Source: Paracoccaceae bacterium (GTDB lineage Bacteria; Pseudomonadota; Alphaproteobacteria; Rhodobacterales; Rhodobacteraceae). Taken from it: DNA of 64,000 nucleotides. Made by a program: the position numbers and the translations under genes. Each line of letters begins with the position of its first letter. Within the stretch, counting starts at the first letter, position 1. The notes beneath the pieces are model-generated. The model had not been told where the DNA came from, did not search any database, and saw nothing but the letters and a program-made list of their open reading frames with translations. Of this stretch, positions 23,484 through 45,042 are shown one piece after another. Location of the stretch: positions 1 through 64,000 of the forward strand of contig JAGXGW010000061.1 of assembly GCA_024636555.1 (NCBI GenBank). The letters run 5' to 3'.

Positions 23484-23494
23484 AACTATACTTG
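23484..23494 (-). promoter_or_regulatory. Recurrent flagellar promoter element, motA copy
   Basis: On the minus strand the sequence is CAAGTATAGTT, identical over 11 bases to a copy before flgI and one base different from a copy between fliF and fliL. It lies about 65 bases upstream of the motA ATG. It is probably the site of a cluster-specific activator. Confidence 0.5.
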
Positions 23495-24663: not shown

Positions 24664-25389
24664 TTATGCGGTCTCTGCCTCGTCCGAGATCTGGACAAGA
24701 TAACCCTTGGACCTGATCGTGCAGACGAGGTAGCGGTTGCCAAAAGCCGCTCTGAGTTTCTTGCGAATCCGCGTGATATGAACGTCGAACTTGCGGTCAC
24801 CATAGAGCCAGTCGGCCTTGTCGAGCTGTCGTGACAGCTGGTTGCGGCTGACAATCTGGCCCCTGTGGCTCAGCAGGATCCGCATGATGTCCGCTTCCAC
24901 CGGCGTCAGTTGCGCGCGGGCAATGAGCGGCGTTTCGAGAGATATGCTTTTCTCGGCCATACCGGCCTGCCGCATCCGCAGCGCGACCCGCGCAACCAGT
25001 TCATGCGCTTGCAAGGGCATACGCAACACGTCATCCGCACCGGCGGCAAGCGCGTCAGCGGCGCTGTTTGCTGTTCCGGCATGGTCGATCACGATGATCA
25101 CCCAGCCCGGCAGATGGCGCCGCAGATCAGCAATCTCGACAGGGCCGAGCACACAATCGCGCAGCCCTGTGAGAAGGACACCGGCGTCGGGCGCGTCGGG
25201 CAGCACGAGGCTTACAAAGGTTTCAAGGCAGGTATCGTCACATACCAAGATTTCCGGAATGCCAAGGACGCGGATGTGATCGGCAAGACCGTCGCAGATG
25301 GTGCGGTCACGGTCTCGGATCACGGCGATGCGCGGAATTTCTCCGACTGCTTGGTACCTTCCGGAAACTTTAATGTTTAAAAGGTTCAT
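24664..25389 (-). CDS. OmpR-type regulator with degenerate receiver domain
   Basis: This 241-residue transcription factor has a receiver-like N-terminal half (about 15-140) and an OmpR/PhoB winged helix (about 150-235; LTPVEADIMRILLSHRGQIVSRNQL, then FDVHITRIRKKL). The aspartate that should be phosphorylated is replaced by threonine (VLLTGL where VLLDVM is usual), and the conserved lysine is replaced by methionine (VLRMPL). It is therefore unlikely to be controlled by phosphorylation. It resembles the flagellar regulator FtcR in this respect. Its start is followed upstream by a 356-base intergenic region shared with mucR. Confidence 0.75.
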   Translation of the reverse strand: MNLLNIKVSGRYQAVGEIPRIAVIRDRDRTICDGLADHIRVLGIPEILVCDDTCLETFVSLVLPDAPDAGVLLTGLRDCVLGPVEIADLRRHLPGWVIIVIDHAGTANSAADALAAGADDVLRMPLQAHELVARVALRMRQAGMAEKSISLETPLIARAQLTPVEADIMRILLSHRGQIVSRNQLSRQLDKADWLYGDRKFDVHITRIRKKLRAAFGNRYLVCTIRSKGYLVQISDEAETA

Positions 25390-27717: not shown

Positions 27718-28491
27718 ATGCGACATGACCGACTTCTGGAATTGATCTGGCAGGGTGACATCCAGCCTGCGTCCGGTCCTGGTGCGGGCCGCTTGCAGCG
27801 CGGGTTGAGCGCGTTGCTGCCCTTGCGCACTGTCTATCTGTCGGCCGCTTCCGGTGTGGATCGCAGATGTATCAAGACAGATGATGTCGAACTGCTGCCT
27901 GAGCTTCCTTTGGGCGATGTGCTGGCCGAGGAACTGTCGATTGATGTGCCAGCCGGATCGTTCGTGGTGATCAGTGACGGCGCGCTTCTGGACAATTTGG
28001 CGCTGGAAGACGAGCTGTCCTACGATCTGGGCGTGCTTGTTGCCGAGGCTTTGCTGGGTGTAATCCGCGCCGGCGTCTTTCCATGCGAGCGGGAAACGGA
28101 TGCGCTTTTCGCAATGGCCCAGTCCTATCACGCGATGATCGACGGCTCCGGTTTCGTGCATCTTGGGCTAAAACCTTCGTGGTTCCGTGTCGGGCTTGCC
28201 GCAGGGCTTTGCACCTATTGGGCCGGCGCGCGAACAGCGCTCAGCGATACAAGCGGGCTGTTCCTGCGGCCCGACTTTCTGTCCTGCCCGAAGCTGCATG
28301 ATTACCTGCGAAACCTTGATAGCAACTTTACCGCGCCAAATCGCGTGTCTGCAGGCCTGATGCTGTTTACCGGTGGAACCTGCAGCTATGGTGCATGGCT
28401 CTCCAAGGTGGAGAAGGCAGTGACAGCCGAACTCGATGCACATTTGATCCGGACTTGCGGTAACGGCCGCTCTCAGGAGTTGCGAGCGTAG
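27718..28491 (+). CDS. Uncharacterised cytoplasmic protein of the flagellar cluster
   Basis: I do not recognise this 257-residue protein. It has no signal peptide or clear membrane helix. The N-terminal half contains a hydrophobic beta-rich region (SFVVISDGALLDNL) and the middle a helical segment (YDLGVLVAEALLGVIRAGVF); it has several cysteines without an obvious motif. The composition is ordinary for the genome. The start has GCGGGA nine bases upstream. It precedes the sigma-factor gene but is separated from it by a promoter with a CtrA box, so it is probably a separate transcript, perhaps itself CtrA-controlled. Confidence 0.6.
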   Translation: MRHDRLLELIWQGDIQPASGPGAGRLQRGLSALLPLRTVYLSAASGVDRRCIKTDDVELLPELPLGDVLAEELSIDVPAGSFVVISDGALLDNLALEDELSYDLGVLVAEALLGVIRAGVFPCERETDALFAMAQSYHAMIDGSGFVHLGLKPSWFRVGLAAGLCTYWAGARTALSDTSGLFLRPDFLSCPKLHDYLRNLDSNFTAPNRVSAGLMLFTGGTCSYGAWLSKVEKAVTAELDAHLIRTCGNGRSQELRA

Positions 28492-28503: not shown

Positions 28504-28519
28504 TTAATCATGTATTAAC
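28504..28519 (+). promoter_or_regulatory. CtrA-binding box upstream of the sigma-factor gene
   Basis: TTAATCATGTATTAAC is a perfect match to the CtrA consensus TTAA, seven bases, TTAAC. It lies 83 bases before the ATG at 28587. The ten bases AATCATGTAT within it recur in the flgF upstream region. Confidence 0.7.
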
Positions 28520-28586
28520 CAGATTATTATTTAATATTGTCTATTTTTATGTATGACTAATCTTGTAATTTATGCGAGTGGTCATC

Positions 28587-29327
28587 ATGAAAAGCACCCT
28601 CCAGGCGGCATTACGCGAACCTCTCCTGACGATTGACTCGGAACGCGATGCGATCCGACGCTGGCAAAACGAAGGCGACCGGCATGCACTCGAGCTTCTG
28701 TTGCGCAGCCACGCGCGGCAGGCTTGGTCGCAGGCGCTGCGTTATGCTGACAATCCGGTGGACCTTGACGACCTTGTCGCCGAAGGAATGATCGGGCTGA
28801 TGCGTGCGGCCAATAGTTTTGACCTCAAGATGAATCTGCGCTTTTCCACCTACGCAGCCTATTGGGTCATGAACGGCGTCTTTACCGCGCTCGCCCGGAT
28901 CGGCACCGTCATAGATATGCCGGTGCGGACCTATCTCGATGCCCGCATGGGGCGGTTGAGCGGCGACGATGCCGGACTGTCCTATTTGGCGACGCAAGGT
29001 GCTGTGCCGCTTGATGCGGGTGGCGAGGGGCTTTCCCTGTCCGAGCGTTTGCCCTGTTCCAGCATGACGCCCGCCGAAGCCACCGAGACGCGCTCGGCGC
29101 AGGCTTTGCTGCAAAGGCTGCTCGATCAGGCGCTGGCGTCGCTTGATCCAACGGAAAAGGCCATCATCCTGCGCCGCAGACTGGCTGCCGATCCGGAAAC
29201 GGCAGAGGCAGTTGCCGCCGATCTGGGAATGTCGGTGCAACGGCTGCGCCAAGGTGAAACGCGCGCTTTGACCCGTCTGCGCCGCGACCTTGTTGCGCGC
29301 GGTTTCAGCCGCGCCATGCTGCATTGA
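28587..29327 (+). CDS. RpoH-like sigma-70-family factor in the flagellar cluster
   Basis: The 246-residue RNA polymerase sigma factor has region 2 at about residues 40-115 (DLDDLVAEGMIGLMRAANSF, then NLRFSTYAAYWVMNGVF). Region 4 lies at about 180-235 (LDPTEKAIILRRRLAADPETAEA, then LRQGETRALTRLRRDL), closest in style to RpoH (RRLADDPVT...RQIE) rather than FliA. The RpoH box is poorly preserved, so it is a divergent member. The upstream perfect CtrA box and the following fliK-flgD suggest it is an early-induced factor directing later flagellar promoters. An ATG at 28572 is an alternative start. Confidence 0.75.
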   Translation: MKSTLQAALREPLLTIDSERDAIRRWQNEGDRHALELLLRSHARQAWSQALRYADNPVDLDDLVAEGMIGLMRAANSFDLKMNLRFSTYAAYWVMNGVFTALARIGTVIDMPVRTYLDARMGRLSGDDAGLSYLATQGAVPLDAGGEGLSLSERLPCSSMTPAEATETRSAQALLQRLLDQALASLDPTEKAIILRRRLAADPETAEAVAADLGMSVQRLRQGETRALTRLRRDLVARGFSRAMLH

Positions 29328-29337
29328 GAGAGAACAA

Positions 29338-30636
29338 ATGATGATGTCCCTACTTGCCGGTTTGGCACCTCTCACGTCATCTCCGCATGCGAAAGGGGAG
29401 GCGGATCCTGCGCTGAAATCGTCGACTCCCGGTAATCTGAAGCCCGACGCGCAGAGTACCACCTCAACCTCGGTACAGCCGGAGCAAGGAAAACCCGCAG
29501 ACTTTGCCGCCCTGCTTGCGGCGGTTTGGCCTCAATCGGGCCAGCAGGGTCTGGCGGGCAAGGCGCAGACCCTGCCGGTCAAACCGCCTGTGGACGCCGC
29601 GCTGGAAAATTTCACCGCAGAGTTGAATGCGCTGGTCTCGTCACTCACGGAAAAACCTGATGCATCCGATCTGTCCGGAATGGTGACGGCCTTTGTGGGG
29701 CTGTTGCAGAACTATGATGCGGCGACAGGCGGTAATGCCACAGCGGTGCTGGTCGAAAACCTGAAGGCGCTCGACAGTGAAGACCTTGCTGTGCTCGACG
29801 CGGCCTCATTGGACCCGGCCATTCTGTTTGCATCACTGGCTGCCCTTGCGGAGATTTCGATGGTTGAAAGCTCCGGTATGCTCGTTCCTTCAGGGCAGGT
29901 GCCGCAGTTGCTCCGGTCTGCAGCCGAGACGGCCTTTCCTGCACGTGACACCTCCCTGAAGGGCAGGGACAGTGCGGATAGCTTGCAGCGCCCGCATGTC
30001 GCGCAGCCGCTGGCCGCTGTGGATACTGTCAAGCCGGTGCAGCAACAGCTCTCCGGCTCGGGCGAGGGTCGCGTTGATTTGCGTACCGTTGTCATGACGG
30101 CGCTTGCGACACCAGGCGCGGGCGCTGAACCGGACGCGGTAGCGCTCGCCTCCGCGCAGAGCGAGACGCGCACTGCATTTTCAGCACCAACCGATATAGC
30201 CCGCGCGGCGGAGGCTCCGCCGCCGCCCGCTTCAGGCTTTGCGCGAAATCTTGCCCAGCAGATCCGGCAGGCCCAATTCACCGACGGTCATACGCGGATT
30301 ACGCTGGCGCCGCGCGGGTTGGGGGAGATCGAGATCGAGATGCGCCCCGACGAGGCAGGCAAGCTCCGGATCGTTTTACGGGCAGAAAACCCGGCGGTTC
30401 TGCATGCCTTGCGCGGGGACCGTGACGGGCTGCTGCTGACGCTGACCGAAAGCGGTGCGGATGTCAGGGATGCCGATCTGAGCTTTGAAGATTTCAGCCA
30501 CAGACAGCGCCGTAATGCGGAAGCTTCCGATGCGCCCACTGGCGGAATTGCGCAAGCCATCGGTCCGGACACACCGGATGTCACCGTGCCCCGGCCAGGG
30601 ATCACCGCGGCAGGCACAGTCGATATGTTAACCTGA
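29338..30636 (+). CDS. fliK: Flagellar hook-length control protein FliK
   Basis: FliK measures the hook and switches the export gate to filament substrates. The 432-residue protein is low-complexity and Ala-rich over most of its length. It ends in the conserved C-terminal Flg_hook domain (about 310-400; ITLAPRGLGEIEIEMRPDEAGKLRIVL), which contacts FlhB. The ATG at 29338 follows GAGAGAG, 10 bases after the sigma-factor stop, and flgD follows after 10 bases. Confidence 0.88.
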   Translation: MMMSLLAGLAPLTSSPHAKGEADPALKSSTPGNLKPDAQSTTSTSVQPEQGKPADFAALLAAVWPQSGQQGLAGKAQTLPVKPPVDAALENFTAELNALVSSLTEKPDASDLSGMVTAFVGLLQNYDAATGGNATAVLVENLKALDSEDLAVLDAASLDPAILFASLAALAEISMVESSGMLVPSGQVPQLLRSAAETAFPARDTSLKGRDSADSLQRPHVAQPLAAVDTVKPVQQQLSGSGEGRVDLRTVVMTALATPGAGAEPDAVALASAQSETRTAFSAPTDIARAAEAPPPPASGFARNLAQQIRQAQFTDGHTRITLAPRGLGEIEIEMRPDEAGKLRIVLRAENPAVLHALRGDRDGLLLTLTESGADVRDADLSFEDFSHRQRRNAEASDAPTGGIAQAIGPDTPDVTVPRPGITAAGTVDMLT

Positions 30637-30646
30637 AGGAAACACC

Positions 30647-31309
30647 ATGGATATTGCACGCATCGCGTCAGCCGCAGACACGCCGAACGGCGCAAGTGTT
30701 GCGAAGGATAAGCTCGACACCGATTACCAGAGTTTCCTCAAACTGCTGATTGCGCAGGTGTCGAACCAGGACCCGTTGGAGCCGATGGATTCCACGACAT
30801 TCGTCTCCCAATTGGCGCAGTTGACCCAGGTGGAGCAATCCATCGTGACCAATGCGAACCTTGAGAAGATCAACCAACGCATGGCCAATGTCGAAGCGCT
30901 CTCGGATGTGCAATTGATCGGGCGCGAGGTGACAGCCGAGACCGACCGCATCGAGCTGCGCGATGGCAGGGCGGCGCTGTCTTATTCCCTCGCGCAGGAG
31001 GCCGAGAATGTGACGGTCATCATCAAATCCATTGATGGCACCGTGATCCGCGAACTGACAGGCCAACCGCGCGCGTCGAAAGTGTCTCATGATCTGGTCT
31101 GGGACGGGCGCGATGTGGATGGGCTGCCGGTTCCGGACGGACTGTTTCAGGTGACGGTCGCCGCCAGTGACGCCACCGGCAACGCCGTAGCCTATCAGAC
31201 GGAATCATCCAGCCGTGTAGAGGAACTGACGTTCCGCGACGGTTATCCTCTGCTGATCCTGCGCAATGGTGCCGAGGCATTTGCGGGCAGCGTGAAATCA
31301 GTGCGGTAG
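30647..31309 (+). CDS. flgD: Flagellar hook scaffold protein FlgD
   Basis: FlgD caps the growing hook and is needed for FlgE assembly. The 220-residue protein has the conserved N-terminal signature (FLKLLIAQVSNQDPLEPMDSTTFVSQLAQ). An FlgD Ig-like/tudor domain follows (about 95-190, with VWDGRDVDGLPVPDGLFQVTV). GAAGGAAA lies before the ATG. It is the last gene of the sigma-fliK-flgD unit and meets the minus-strand basal-body unit tail-to-tail. Confidence 0.95.
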   Translation: MDIARIASAADTPNGASVAKDKLDTDYQSFLKLLIAQVSNQDPLEPMDSTTFVSQLAQLTQVEQSIVTNANLEKINQRMANVEALSDVQLIGREVTAETDRIELRDGRAALSYSLAQEAENVTVIIKSIDGTVIRELTGQPRASKVSHDLVWDGRDVDGLPVPDGLFQVTVAASDATGNAVAYQTESSSRVEELTFRDGYPLLILRNGAEAFAGSVKSVR

Positions 31310-37282: not shown

Positions 37283-37319
37283 ACCGAAACCTTAACCGCC
37301 CTTAAAACCATGCTGCCTA
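37283..37319 (+). promoter_or_regulatory. Late-type flagellar promoter of flgE
   Basis: CCGAAACCTTAACC (37284-37297) is shared, with one mismatch, with the region before the flagellin gene. GCTGCCTA follows at 37312-37319, at the same distance as GCCGCCAA in the flagellin promoter. TAAC, 15 bases, GC(C/T)G resembles the sigma-28 layout, though no FliA is encoded here. Confidence 0.5.
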
Positions 37320-37379
37320 TATCTCATGTGTCGTGACGTGGTCAGACGCGGGTGGCACCAACAAGAAGGACGCTTTATC

Positions 37380-38657
37380 ATGAGCATTTCCAACGCAATG
37401 CAGACCGGCGTCAGTGGTTTGCGTGCCAACTCCACTGCTGTCGGCCGCATCTCTGACAACATCGCGAATGCCAATACAGACGGATATCGCCGCAGCTTTG
37501 CCCAGATGGTGACCACAACCACGACCAGCAGCGGCACGGGGCTTGCCCCTGCGGGCGTACAGGCAGTGCAGGGCACCAATGTGTCACTGGACGGGGCGCT
37601 GCGGCCGACGGGGCGGGCGACAGACCTTGCGATCAGCGGATCGGGCTTTTTTGTCGTCTCGCGGGGTCCCGACGAATTGGTCGAGTCAAACTATATGCTG
37701 ACCCGCGCCGGATCGTTTCTTCCCGACGAGAACGGGAATCTGCGAAACGCTGCCGGCCTCTTTCTTGCCGGCTTTCCCTATGGCGAGGATGGCGCGCTGG
37801 GCGCGGTGGACCGCAACCGGTTCGGGGATCTCCAGACGGTCAATATCGGCGATGTGCAGATGCGCGGTGCCCCGACAACAGCGATCACGATTGGCGGAAA
37901 CGTTCCGGCGCAGCAGACCGGCCTTGTGCCGCCGGGCGATCCGTTCCTGTCCTCGGCAGAGTTCTTCTCGCCCCTCGGTGTGGCCGCGCGCCTGCAGTTT
38001 TCATGGCAGCCGACAGACGTCCCCAATACTTGGGAAGTTACTGTCACGGACCCAGCTGGTGCTGCGCTGGGCACCGTCGGCGTGACGTTCAACGCCGAGG
38101 GTCCGAATGCGGGAACGCCCACCTATGACAACACCAACTTCCCAACCTTTGACGTGGCTACTGGTCAAGTTCTGGTTAACGTAGGCGTTCCGGCGCAGCC
38201 GATCACCCTCGACTTCGGTGCGCCGGACACCTTCACCGGCATGACGCAATTCGCCGGAGATTACACACCGCTCAGGATGGGGGCGGACGGCTCGGAAACC
38301 GGCATGCTGGTTCGCACCGAAATCGACGAGCGCGGAGACGTTTACGGCGTCTTCGACAACGGTAGACGCAGGGCGCTCTTTAACATCCCACTGGCGCAGG
38401 TGCCGAACCCTGACGGGCTGCTGACGACCAACGGCAACGCCTTCATGCTCTCGCGCTCCTCCGGACCCATGCAGTTGGGCACGGCAGGAACGGGTGCAGC
38501 CGGAACGATCACCGCCGGTGCGCTGGAAAGCTCCAACGTGGAGGTGGCGCAGGAACTGACGGATCTGATCCAGACACAGCGCGCTTATTCCTCCAACGCC
38601 AAGATCGTCACCACGGTTGACGAGATGCTGGAAGAAACCATGCGTCTCAAGCGCTGA
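37380..38657 (+). CDS. flgE: Flagellar hook protein FlgE
   Basis: FlgE polymerises into the hook. The 425-residue protein begins MSISNAMQTGVSGLRANSTA with the rod/hook motif ISDNIANANTDGYRRSF, has the FlgE central D2 region, and ends with the hook C-terminal motif ESSNVEVAQELTDLIQTQRAYSSNAKIVTTVDEML. AGAAGGA lies nine bases before the ATG. It is followed closely by flgK and flgL as a hook-filament junction operon. Confidence 0.95.
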   Translation: MSISNAMQTGVSGLRANSTAVGRISDNIANANTDGYRRSFAQMVTTTTTSSGTGLAPAGVQAVQGTNVSLDGALRPTGRATDLAISGSGFFVVSRGPDELVESNYMLTRAGSFLPDENGNLRNAAGLFLAGFPYGEDGALGAVDRNRFGDLQTVNIGDVQMRGAPTTAITIGGNVPAQQTGLVPPGDPFLSSAEFFSPLGVAARLQFSWQPTDVPNTWEVTVTDPAGAALGTVGVTFNAEGPNAGTPTYDNTNFPTFDVATGQVLVNVGVPAQPITLDFGAPDTFTGMTQFAGDYTPLRMGADGSETGMLVRTEIDERGDVYGVFDNGRRRALFNIPLAQVPNPDGLLTTNGNAFMLSRSSGPMQLGTAGTGAAGTITAGALESSNVEVAQELTDLIQTQRAYSSNAKIVTTVDEMLEETMRLKR

Positions 38658-41200: not shown

Positions 41201-41929
41201 TCATGCCTCTGCCGGTGGCTGTGCAGCGTCCGTCTGGGGATGCATCTCCGGCGGGGACAGTTTGTAGCCGCGTCCGTGCACCGTCTCGATATAGCGGTGG
41301 CCGGGACCTGCAGCCGAGGCGATCTTCTTGCGGATCTTGCAGATGTAAACGTCGATCACCTTGTCGAAGGGTTGGTCTTCGGCCATGCCGTAAAGGGCAT
41401 CATAGATCGCGGCCTTGGAAACGACGCGCCGCGCATTCAGCACGAGCTGCTTGAAAACGGCGTGCTCCCGGCCTGACAGAAAAACCGTCTCGCCTGCAAC
41501 TTCGGGATCACGCCCGTCGAAATACGCGGTTACGGCGCCGATCCGGATGCTTTGGGCGGCATGACCATGGGTGCGCCGGGTGATGGAGTTGATCCGCGAC
41601 TGCAACTCAACGCCCTTGACCGGAATGACAACGTCATCATCCGCACCATGATCCAGTGTCCGGGCGGCAGCAGCGGCATTGCGGAAGTCGCGCATCACCA
41701 CGATCGGGTTGCGGCAGCCCGCGCCCCGCAGTTTTCCGATCTGGTCAAGCGAGGCTGCGCCGTAGGACAGCAGAAGCGGGCGCACATCATGCCCCTCGCG
41801 GTTCAGCAAACCCAGATCACCCTCAAAGAATCTGTCGGTGATGCGGACTGGCGTGATCCTCGCAGCGCGCAACTCGGTGCAAAGACCGGCTGCTCGGTCG
41901 TCACGGGGCTCGTAAAGGTAGATATGCAT
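41201..41929 (-). CDS. ftcR: FtcR-like flagellar transcriptional regulator
   Basis: This OmpR-family protein has 242 residues and a degenerate receiver (about 1-115). The phospho-acceptor position reads S in LLLSYGA and the conserved lysine site reads I in VVIPVKG, so phosphorylation is not expected. A winged helix follows (about 135-230: LSGREHAVFKQLVLNARRVVSKAAIY, then DKVIDVYICKIRKKI). This matches FtcR of Brucella and Rhizobiales, which activates fliF and other flagellar genes. The ATG at 41929 gives the family N-terminus MHIYLYEPRDD. It is divergent from flgI across a 185-base region holding a dyad that may be its operator. Confidence 0.82.
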   Translation of the reverse strand: MHIYLYEPRDDRAAGLCTELRAARITPVRITDRFFEGDLGLLNREGHDVRPLLLSYGAASLDQIGKLRGAGCRNPIVVMRDFRNAAAAARTLDHGADDDVVIPVKGVELQSRINSITRRTHGHAAQSIRIGAVTAYFDGRDPEVAGETVFLSGREHAVFKQLVLNARRVVSKAAIYDALYGMAEDQPFDKVIDVYICKIRKKIASAAGPGHRYIETVHGRGYKLSPPEMHPQTDAAQPPAEA

Positions 41930-42018: not shown

Positions 42019-42042
42019 CAAGTATAGTTTAATTAATACTTG
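42019..42042 (+). promoter_or_regulatory. Dyad operator candidate between ftcR and flgI
   Basis: CAAGTAT (42019-42025), ten bases, ATACTTG (42036-42042) is a perfect 7-base inverted repeat. Its left arm continues as CAAGTATAGTT, the element repeated in the motA promoter and, with one change, between fliF and fliL. The region lies between an FtcR-like gene and flgI, so autoregulation plus flgI activation is plausible. Confidence 0.55.
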
Positions 42043-43972: not shown

Positions 43973-44008
43973 CCGAAACGTTAACCCCGCCGAAACCTCT
44001 GCCGCCAA
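43973..44008 (+). promoter_or_regulatory. Late-type promoter of the flagellin gene
   Basis: CCGAAACGTTAACC (43973-43986) is followed by GCCGCCAA (44001-44008). TAAC, 15 bases, GCCGcc AA fits the sigma-28 layout TAAA-N15-GCCGATAA in 9 of 12 positions. The first part is shared with the flgE promoter. A transcript would carry a leader of roughly 85 bases. Confidence 0.55.
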
Positions 44009-44024
44009 TCTCTTATCACGGCCC

Positions 44025-44067
44025 GGTCCAGAAGGACCTGAGCGCCAGTTTTCGTCAGAAAGACGAA
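44025..44067 (+). promoter_or_regulatory. Two hairpins in the flagellin mRNA leader
   Basis: GGTCC, AGAA, GGACC (44025-44038) and TTCGTC, AGAAA, GACGAA (44051-44067) form two perfect short stems between the promoter and the start codon. Both loops contain AGAA. In Caulobacter FlbT binds the flagellin leader, and flbT lies 0.7 kb downstream here, so these are candidates for its target. Confidence 0.5.
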
Positions 44068-44100: not shown

Positions 44101-45042
44101 ATGACGTCTATTCTTACAAACAACTCCGCAATGAACGCGCTTGCTACACTTAAGAACATTAACAACAACCTCAACACTACGCAGGACCGTATCAGCACGG
44201 GTTTGAAAGTGTCGTCGGGCAAGGACAACGCTGCTTATTTCTCCATTTCGTCCACCATGAAGGGCGATAGCGGGATGTACAAATCCATCGATGAGAGCCT
44301 GACACTTACGAAAAACGCTGTATCAACTGGCCGACTGGGCGTTGAAACTGTAGCGGATCTCGGACGAGAAATTGCCGAGCGTGTCTCTTTTGCGACCGGG
44401 ACGGGCGTCGATCGTGCAAAGGTTCAAGAAGAAATAAACGCACTCACCGCAAGGATGACTACTGCTCTTGAGCAGTCAACATTCAACGGCTCCAGCATGG
44501 TGGACGGCGATGAGCCAGTCGCTTTGTTTACCGGACAGACGCCAACTGCCGTTCCCGATTCTGAAAATTCGCGTCAGGTAGTTACTGGTGTGAAGAGGGA
44601 TGCCGCAGGCGCACTAAGCGTTACTGAAATCACTGTCGAGAAAGTTAACCTTGAAGGAATTATCGCGGCTTTCAAAAGCATCGACGTTAATGACCTGAAA
44701 CAAGACAATCGAACCGCTGCGCTTGATACCGCCTCCACAACGTTTGCTGCTGATGTAGCCGAATCGCTTGGACGAGCTGTTCAAGACGCGGGCTCGGCAC
44801 TCACTCTTGCCGTCAATGCGGCAACTTCGCTCGGCATCGCAGAAAAGTCGATTGAGACGCAACAGTCCTTCCTTGGCGAACTGTCCAAGCGTCTCGACAG
44901 CGGCATCGGCAGCATGATCGACGCCGACATGGAATCCGAAGCTGCCCGCCTGCAAGCCTTGCAAGTCCAGCAGCAGTTGGCCACGCAGGCGCTGTCCATC
45001 GCCAACCAAGGTCCGCAAAACATCCTGAGCCTCTTCCGCTAA
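44101..45042 (+). CDS. Flagellin
   Basis: This is the filament subunit and the only flagellin in the window. The 313-residue protein has the conserved N-terminal D0/D1 helices (about 5-140: NNNLNTTQDRISTGLKVSSGKDNAAYFSIS) and C-terminal D1/D0 (about 215-313, ending IANQGPQNILSLFR). The central 140-215 region is short and variable. The gene, especially its middle, is visibly richer in A/T codons than its neighbours. AAGGGG lies 7 bases before the ATG. flaF and flbT, which control flagellin secretion and translation, follow. Confidence 0.95.
   Translation: MTSILTNNSAMNALATLKNINNNLNTTQDRISTGLKVSSGKDNAAYFSISSTMKGDSGMYKSIDESLTLTKNAVSTGRLGVETVADLGREIAERVSFATGTGVDRAKVQEEINALTARMTTALEQSTFNGSSMVDGDEPVALFTGQTPTAVPDSENSRQVVTGVKRDAAGALSVTEITVEKVNLEGIIAAFKSIDVNDLKQDNRTAALDTASTTFAADVAESLGRAVQDAGSALTLAVNAATSLGIAEKSIETQQSFLGELSKRLDSGIGSMIDADMESEAARLQALQVQQQLATQALSIANQGPQNILSLFR

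Follow-up and report, generated by a model that had tools for sequence, protein, structure and literature searches.

A sigma factor gene at the head of the flagellar genes fliK and flgD, preceded by a perfect CtrA-type box, raises the question of which regulator acts through that box and which promoters the sigma factor serves. The locus lies in a window of 64 kb (the whole 64,000-nucleotide stretch analysed) from a Paracoccaceae assembly (G000) that is 79.6% complete. The flagellar cluster of the window is of the fla2 type, 38 of the 41 probe genes of the Marinovum algicola plasmid pMaD5 being matched by tblastn. The probes without a tblastn match in the window were hyp04546, hyp04556 and FliK, the last of which was found through Pfam as the 39th pMaD5 gene present. 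The Marinovum fla2 cluster has the same gene content and a largely shared local order, with the sigma gene before fliK–flgD and a regulator gene between flgL and flgI in both, whereas its flhB–fliI block occupies another place. Clusters of this type, carried by some marine and related bacteria, are reported to move between Rhodobacterales, 21 of 43 being located on plasmids (PMC12363192). The elements around the sigma gene are arranged as follows.

27718–28491, plus strand: conserved hypothetical gene, immediately 5′ of the sigma gene
28504–28519, plus strand: CtrA-type box TTAATCATGTATTAAC, 67 bp 5′ of the sigma gene
within 28520–28583, plus strand: promoter core with TCTTTC and TGTG-TTAT-like blocks, recognized by eye in 23 aligned upstream regions
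28555–28583, plus strand: imperfect inverted repeat, overlapping the first ATG of the sigma open reading frame
28587–29327, plus strand: fla2 sigma factor of the sigma-70 family, leading fliK and flgD; the open reading frame opens at 28572
29338–30636, plus strand: fliK (Pfam Flg_hook, 36.7 bits; position matches annotated orthologous clusters)
30647–31309, plus strand: flgD (Pfam FlgD)

The open reading frame 28572–29327 encodes 251 amino acids; alignment with its orthologues sets the start at the ATG of 28587, for a protein of 246. The claim of a preliminary description that a sigma gene leads fliK–flgD is borne out: the product contains sigma-70 regions 2 and 4 (Pfam Sigma70_r2, 51.1 bits; Sigma70_r4, 33.8 bits; both above cut-off), it scores 81.4 bits with the superfamily model TIGR02937 (cut-off 42.9), and fliK and flgD follow by Pfam. 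Aligned with Escherichia coli sigma factors and those of its own genome, the protein keeps regions 1.2–2, the linker and region 4, and most of region 3 is missing. Compared with the layout of ECF (group 4) factors, region 3 is mostly gone, yet a region 1.2-like N terminus and the linker are present. Purifying selection acts on the gene (pN/pS of 0.13, 0.23, 0.22 and 0.13 in four pairs), and its closest named relatives are in a Rhodobacteraceae metagenome-assembled genome (85% identity) and a Roseinatronobacter one (76%). An AlphaFold2 model computed from 14 rows has a pLDDT of 76 and a pTM of 0.46, with residues 138–157 below 50. The best 50 of 377 Foldseek matches to it are mostly sigma factors with a query TM of at most 0.39, so the domain layout is not demonstrated by the predicted structure.

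The protein had been described as RpoH-type, an assignment that does not hold as one of membership. Its best NCBIfam models are sigma-32 models, with 117.3 and 101.4 bits, about one third of their cut-offs of 315 and 323.1. The RpoH box, a motif after region 2.4, is absent from its aligned sequence and present in E. coli RpoH and in both of the two full-length RpoH paralogues encoded elsewhere in the window’s genome. In the sigma trees, 19 fla2 sigma factors form one clade (support 100/99), to which the Methylorubrum extorquens and Rhizobium leguminosarum relatives attach (99/98). Both trees place this clade apart from the RpoH rows; in one of them G235, an RpoH-like row, falls on the long branch of FliA. 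Two distant plasmid relatives, H11 and H12, were used in these trees only. The phylogeny that the preliminary description had named as counting against it, placement as an ordinary heat-shock RpoH, did not occur, although AU tests did not reject a position inside RpoH (p = 0.46 and 0.49). The M. extorquens and R. leguminosarum relatives (L042, 20001–20762; L045, 20007–20765) are 33–34% identical over 96% of the query, and none of the eight neighbouring open reading frames scanned was flagellar.

FliA fares no better as an assignment, with 33.1 bits against the TIGR02479 cut-off of 189.6. The sigma thus lies below the curated cut-offs of both RpoH and FliA, and its aligned features are not those of RpoH. 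As had been claimed, no FliA was found in the cluster, the best score in the window’s 79.6%-complete genome being 77.9 bits. No match to RpoN was found in the same assembly, and FlgM was found in 0 of 6 sigma-bearing genomes searched (the same search was positive in 4 of 14 genomes, including E. coli). The suggestion of a scheme other than those of sigma-54 and FliA agrees with these results.

The box TTAATCATGTATTAAC is the sole full match to TTAA-N7-TTAAC in the window (0.02 expected; 2 of 100 shuffled sequences matched), and it bears out the earlier mention of a perfect CtrA box. Its position and conservation are established. In all 23 sigma-bearing clusters compared, the best match to TTAA-N7-TTAA within 150 bp upstream of the sigma gene agrees in no fewer than 7 of the 8 letters and starts at −68 to −93; as good a match arose in a median of 0.015 of the shuffles. 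The clusters are related, and this conservation in part reflects shared descent. The promoter-core blocks are conserved in the orthologues and poorly matched in the window itself. In many of the 23 clusters an inverted repeat follows the box, for example CTATCCTTG-N4-CAAGGATAG, placed after the promoter core and ahead of the sigma start codon (window, L015, L040 and L024), with half-sites that resemble the YTATNCTTG motif described below. The hypothetical gene at 27718–28491 was considered as a sigma-specific partner in a search for an anti-sigma factor and rejected, as it also occurs in six clusters without the sigma.

A candidate for acting on the box is encoded within the cluster itself.

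41201–41929, minus strand: CtrA-like regulator RR04537 (orthologue of MALG_04537), between flgL and flgI

In RR04537, Pfam finds an OmpR-type DNA-binding domain and no receiver. The best NCBIfam model is that of CtrA (NF045991; 118.3 bits, cut-off 350; the next model has 68 bits), with which the genome’s own CtrA scores 420 bits. The two proteins have near-identical recognition helices (KVIDVYICKIRKK in RR04537, KIIDVFICKLRKK in CtrA), and their DNA-binding domains are 43% identical over 91 residues. The DNA-binding domain of the Marinovum regulator is only 29% identical to that of CtrA, which counts against the reading favoured below. In an alignment with the own CtrA added, none of 18 regulator rows has an aspartate in the phosphorylation column (in a five-row alignment, another aspartate of the window’s regulator falls in that column), and the acidic pair, serine and lysine of the receiver are replaced in all 18. 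On these alignments the receiver of RR04537 is predicted to be dead, without catalytic residues.

The regulator gene lies between flgL and flgI in 21 of the 21 sigma-bearing clusters readable there: 20 of 23 were read directly, G318 was read from the opposite contig end, and L011 and L012 end before the place. A flagellar cluster on an Azospirillum plasmid has a regulator homologue (48% identity over 72% of the length) one gene from fliG, and no sigma is annotated before its fliK. The only TTAA-N7-TTAA in 36.5 kb of that cluster (0.00 expected) lies just upstream of the homologue, in the divergent region between it and a hypothetical gene. In the window, a second OmpR-type protein is encoded near motB (24664–25389, minus strand), in which Pfam finds no receiver; it is matched in some fla2 clusters only.

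Among 394 genomes of the family, the sigma was found in 14 (at least 247 bits; next score 130.9) and a fla2-type FlgE in 22 (at least 605 bits; next 374). That the sigma is confined to fla2 clusters is established for the genomes searched: all 14 genomes are among the 22, and 0 of the 372 others have it. Outside the family, only the window’s own genome reached fla2-sigma scores among 385 genomes of the class (378.8 bits; next 161.3). Eight fla2 genomes are without the sigma, and in two of them, G139 and G311, the contig ends before its place. Some rows of the 23 assembled sigma-bearing clusters were found by searching for the sigma. Excluded from this set were the fragments L013 and L014, L027 (a 29% match in Lachnospiraceae), G391 (short contig), L019 and L022 (upstream region of the sigma scanned, clusters not assembled) and 15 of 19 plasmid matches, H11 and H12 among them.

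The regulator is missing genome-wide in G107, G177, G170, G262 and G006, with best scores of 131, 130, 137, 138 and 86 bits, respectively, and nine other genomes searched have orthologues at 322–411 bits. All five regulator-less genomes are also without the sigma. A box of at least 7 of 8 letters before the sigma gene or fliK is present in 24 of 24 clusters with sigma or regulator versus 0 of 5 without the regulator, and the flgE box in 17 of 24 versus 0 of 5. The joint loss of regulator, sigma and the fliK and flgE boxes is established as an observation. Nine flagellar proteins of 29 clusters were used for a quick tree, without L011 and L012 (too few genes) and without G107b (a second FlgE copy of G107 with no probe genes nearby). 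It requires five losses of the regulator, forced by supported branches. The sigma went the same way as the regulator in 5 of 5 independent pairs (sign test, p = 0.0625, the minimum attainable for five). Because sigma-bearing rows had partly been found through the sigma, a separate count was made on the 22 genomes found by FlgE. After removal of G139 and G311, where the contig ends, and of G391, in which the regulator had not been sought, 19 remained: 13 have both genes, 5 neither and 1 the regulator only (Fisher’s exact test by hand, p = 5 × 10⁻⁴, kinship ignored). In this last genome, G138, a sister of the sigma-bearing G044, the sigma alone has been lost: the regulator is still there, as are the box before flgE and the first box (TTAAGCGGCCTTTAA), which now stands directly before fliK. 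The regulator can therefore be retained without the sigma, and a sigma without the regulator was not seen in the genomes compared.

In four of the five regulator-less genomes a CtrA-like gene remains, next to the gene (presumably mnmA) that also adjoins it in the window’s genome. In this sequence comparison, the boxes before sigma or fliK and before flgE thus appear to follow RR04537, not CtrA, although the boxes could instead have disappeared because CtrA control was lost altogether. The repeated joint disappearance of the sigma and the CtrA look-alike suggests a self-contained flagellar control circuit, for which the five parallel co-losses and the one sigma-only loss are natural controls. 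The remaining boxes lie before flgE and flagellin.

37292–37306, plus strand: CtrA-type box before flgE, 7 of 8 letters
37380–38657, plus strand: flgE, then flgK and flgL; start set by orthologues, the open reading frame opening at 37326
43981–43995, plus strand: weaker CtrA-type box before flagellin, 6 of 8 letters, equalled in 116 of 400 shuffles
44101–45042, plus strand: flagellin

Among regulator-bearing clusters, flgE is preceded by a box of its own in 17 of 24, and flagellin in 14 of 20. The flgE boxes are individually weak (in sigma-bearing clusters a median of 0.065 of shuffles are as good), and two of the five regulator-less clusters reach 6 of 8 letters somewhere upstream of flgE. 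The flagellin boxes do not split cleanly, with 14 of 20 in clusters with the regulator and 3 of 5 in those without. With a box at flgE and at most flagellin promoters, neither gene need be reached through a sigma relay.

A promoter element tracking the sigma was looked for in the fla2 upstream regions and none was found. The top enriched upstream 8-mer of the clusters, CAAGAATA, was seen 68 times against 1.4 expected and has the core YTATNCTTG, which forms 12 direct-repeat pairs 10 bp apart. As a site of the regulator or of the sigma it was dropped, since it persists in clusters without both. It occurs in the window at 23486–23494 and 42019–42027 and upstream in other fla2 clusters as well, and the MucR protein of the cluster is one candidate to bind it. 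In the fla2-bearing genome G006 (L136 and L137), in which no CtrA-like regulator reaches the usual score (best 86 bits), YTATNCTTG-type sites stand upstream of flgE in place of the box. The flagellin leader contains a conserved hairpin, GTC-AGAA(N)-GAC, at 44049–44067 of the window, with compensating stem changes (CGTC/GACG and AGTC/GACT). Stems of at least five pairs, G–T allowed, are found in 20 of 25 clusters, sigma-less ones included. The hairpin may be a target of FlbT, the flbT gene being nearby.

The reading that we favour, with a probability of roughly 0.55, is that RR04537 is a Rem-like regulator that drives sigma–fliK–flgD and the hook genes as a control module internal to the cluster. 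Acting like Rem of the rhizobia (a likeness to Rem and FtcR drawn from published descriptions), RR04537 would bind the TTAA-N7-TTAA boxes and activate two putative operons, sigma–fliK–flgD and the hook operon flgE–flgK–flgL. The sigma, of which domains 2 and 4 and a short linker are left, might give RNA polymerase a second, module-specific promoter preference, and regulator and sigma would then form a feed-forward loop with the sigma as its second tier. Only tentatively can this be extended to fla2 as a portable two-protein module, in which a mimic without the aspartate took the CtrA box from the host CtrA and a sigma without domain 3 works at the promoters of the mimic. The scheme of the preliminary description, in which the box is bound by the host’s own CtrA and the sigma, once switched on by it, goes on to transcribe late flagellar genes, seems doubtful. 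The window’s genome has a CtrA above the cut-off, TTAATCATGTATTAAC fits the CtrA consensus, and in Dinoroseobacter shibae CtrA is reported to control flagellar genes and rpoH1, which has a CtrA site (PMC4046655). The fliK and flgE boxes are nevertheless gone in the four genomes that keep a CtrA-like gene and lack the cluster-borne regulator, and the own boxes of flgE and most flagellin promoters leave no need for a sigma relay. What survives of the proposed cascade is a dedicated sigma behind a conserved CtrA-type box in a flagellar cluster; its CtrA step gives way to boxes that follow RR04537, and its relay to boxes at flgE and flagellin and to G138, which keeps regulator and boxes without the sigma.

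G138 also lends something to a different idea, that the sigma is a passenger of the fliK–flgD operon with a non-flagellar regulon (in surface life or stress, for example) and that the box serves fliK–flgD, before which it now stands in that genome. The non-flagellar neighbours scanned around the M. extorquens and R. leguminosarum relatives point the same way; the absence of the sigma from all 372 family genomes without fla2-type FlgE, and its loss together with the regulator in five lineages, make the idea improbable. An ordinary heat-shock RpoH that happens to sit in the cluster is very improbable indeed: the genome encodes two RpoH paralogues elsewhere, both of full length and both with the RpoH box, and the fla2 sigma, far below the RpoH cut-offs, without that box and with region 3 mostly gone, forms its own clade (100/99), even though its best NCBIfam models are for sigma-32, the top Foldseek match (best 50 of 377) is a sigma-32 at a TM of just 0.39, and the AU tests did not reject a place within RpoH.

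Several known systems share parts of the favoured arrangement of RR04537 and sigma. The VisNR–Rem cascade of rhizobia likewise has an OmpR-type regulator without key aspartates, which activates class II flagellar genes, and the accessible text of the two sources mentions no dedicated sigma for it (PMC9812332, PMC6180460). FliA (sigma-28) and FlgM resemble the present case in having a dedicated sigma-70-family factor tied to flagella, but the fla2 sigma is far below the FliA cut-off and FlgM was found in none of the 6 sigma-bearing genomes searched. The CtrA to sigma-54/FlbD hierarchy of Caulobacter likewise has CtrA-type boxes at its flagellar promoters, whereas the window’s genome (79.6% complete) has no RpoN match and the second-tier factor belongs to the sigma-70 family. 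A CtrA-type site before a sigma gene is shared with rpoH1 of D. shibae, which is named as an rpoH (PMC4046655), whereas the sigma gene of the window belongs to the flagellar cluster and its product falls short of the RpoH cut-offs.

A 2026 paper (PMC12843797) notes ‘rpoD’ and ‘cheY’ at the corresponding places of two Marinovum fla2 clusters, flagellar plasmids of Sulfitobacter pontiacus are reported with a sigma-28 element and an ECF factor (PMC13386836), and an FtcR-like ActR is reported from Azorhizobium (PMC8639532). So far as was found, prior papers touch the fla2 sigma and regulator genes only in passing. No description of the coupling of regulator, sigma and boxes was found in the literature searched, which was partly accessible and mostly outside subscription papers.

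If the favoured reading is true, fla2 clusters would have a sigma-dependent flagellar scheme outside those of FliA and sigma-54. Should the portable module also prove true, it would be a third way of timing flagellar assembly beside FliA/FlgM and sigma-54/FlbD, and a horizontally moved flagellum would run apart from the CtrA circuit of its host. Carrying a regulator and a sigma of its own would account for the ability of a transferred fla2 cluster to be switched on in a new host independently of the CtrA network of that host.
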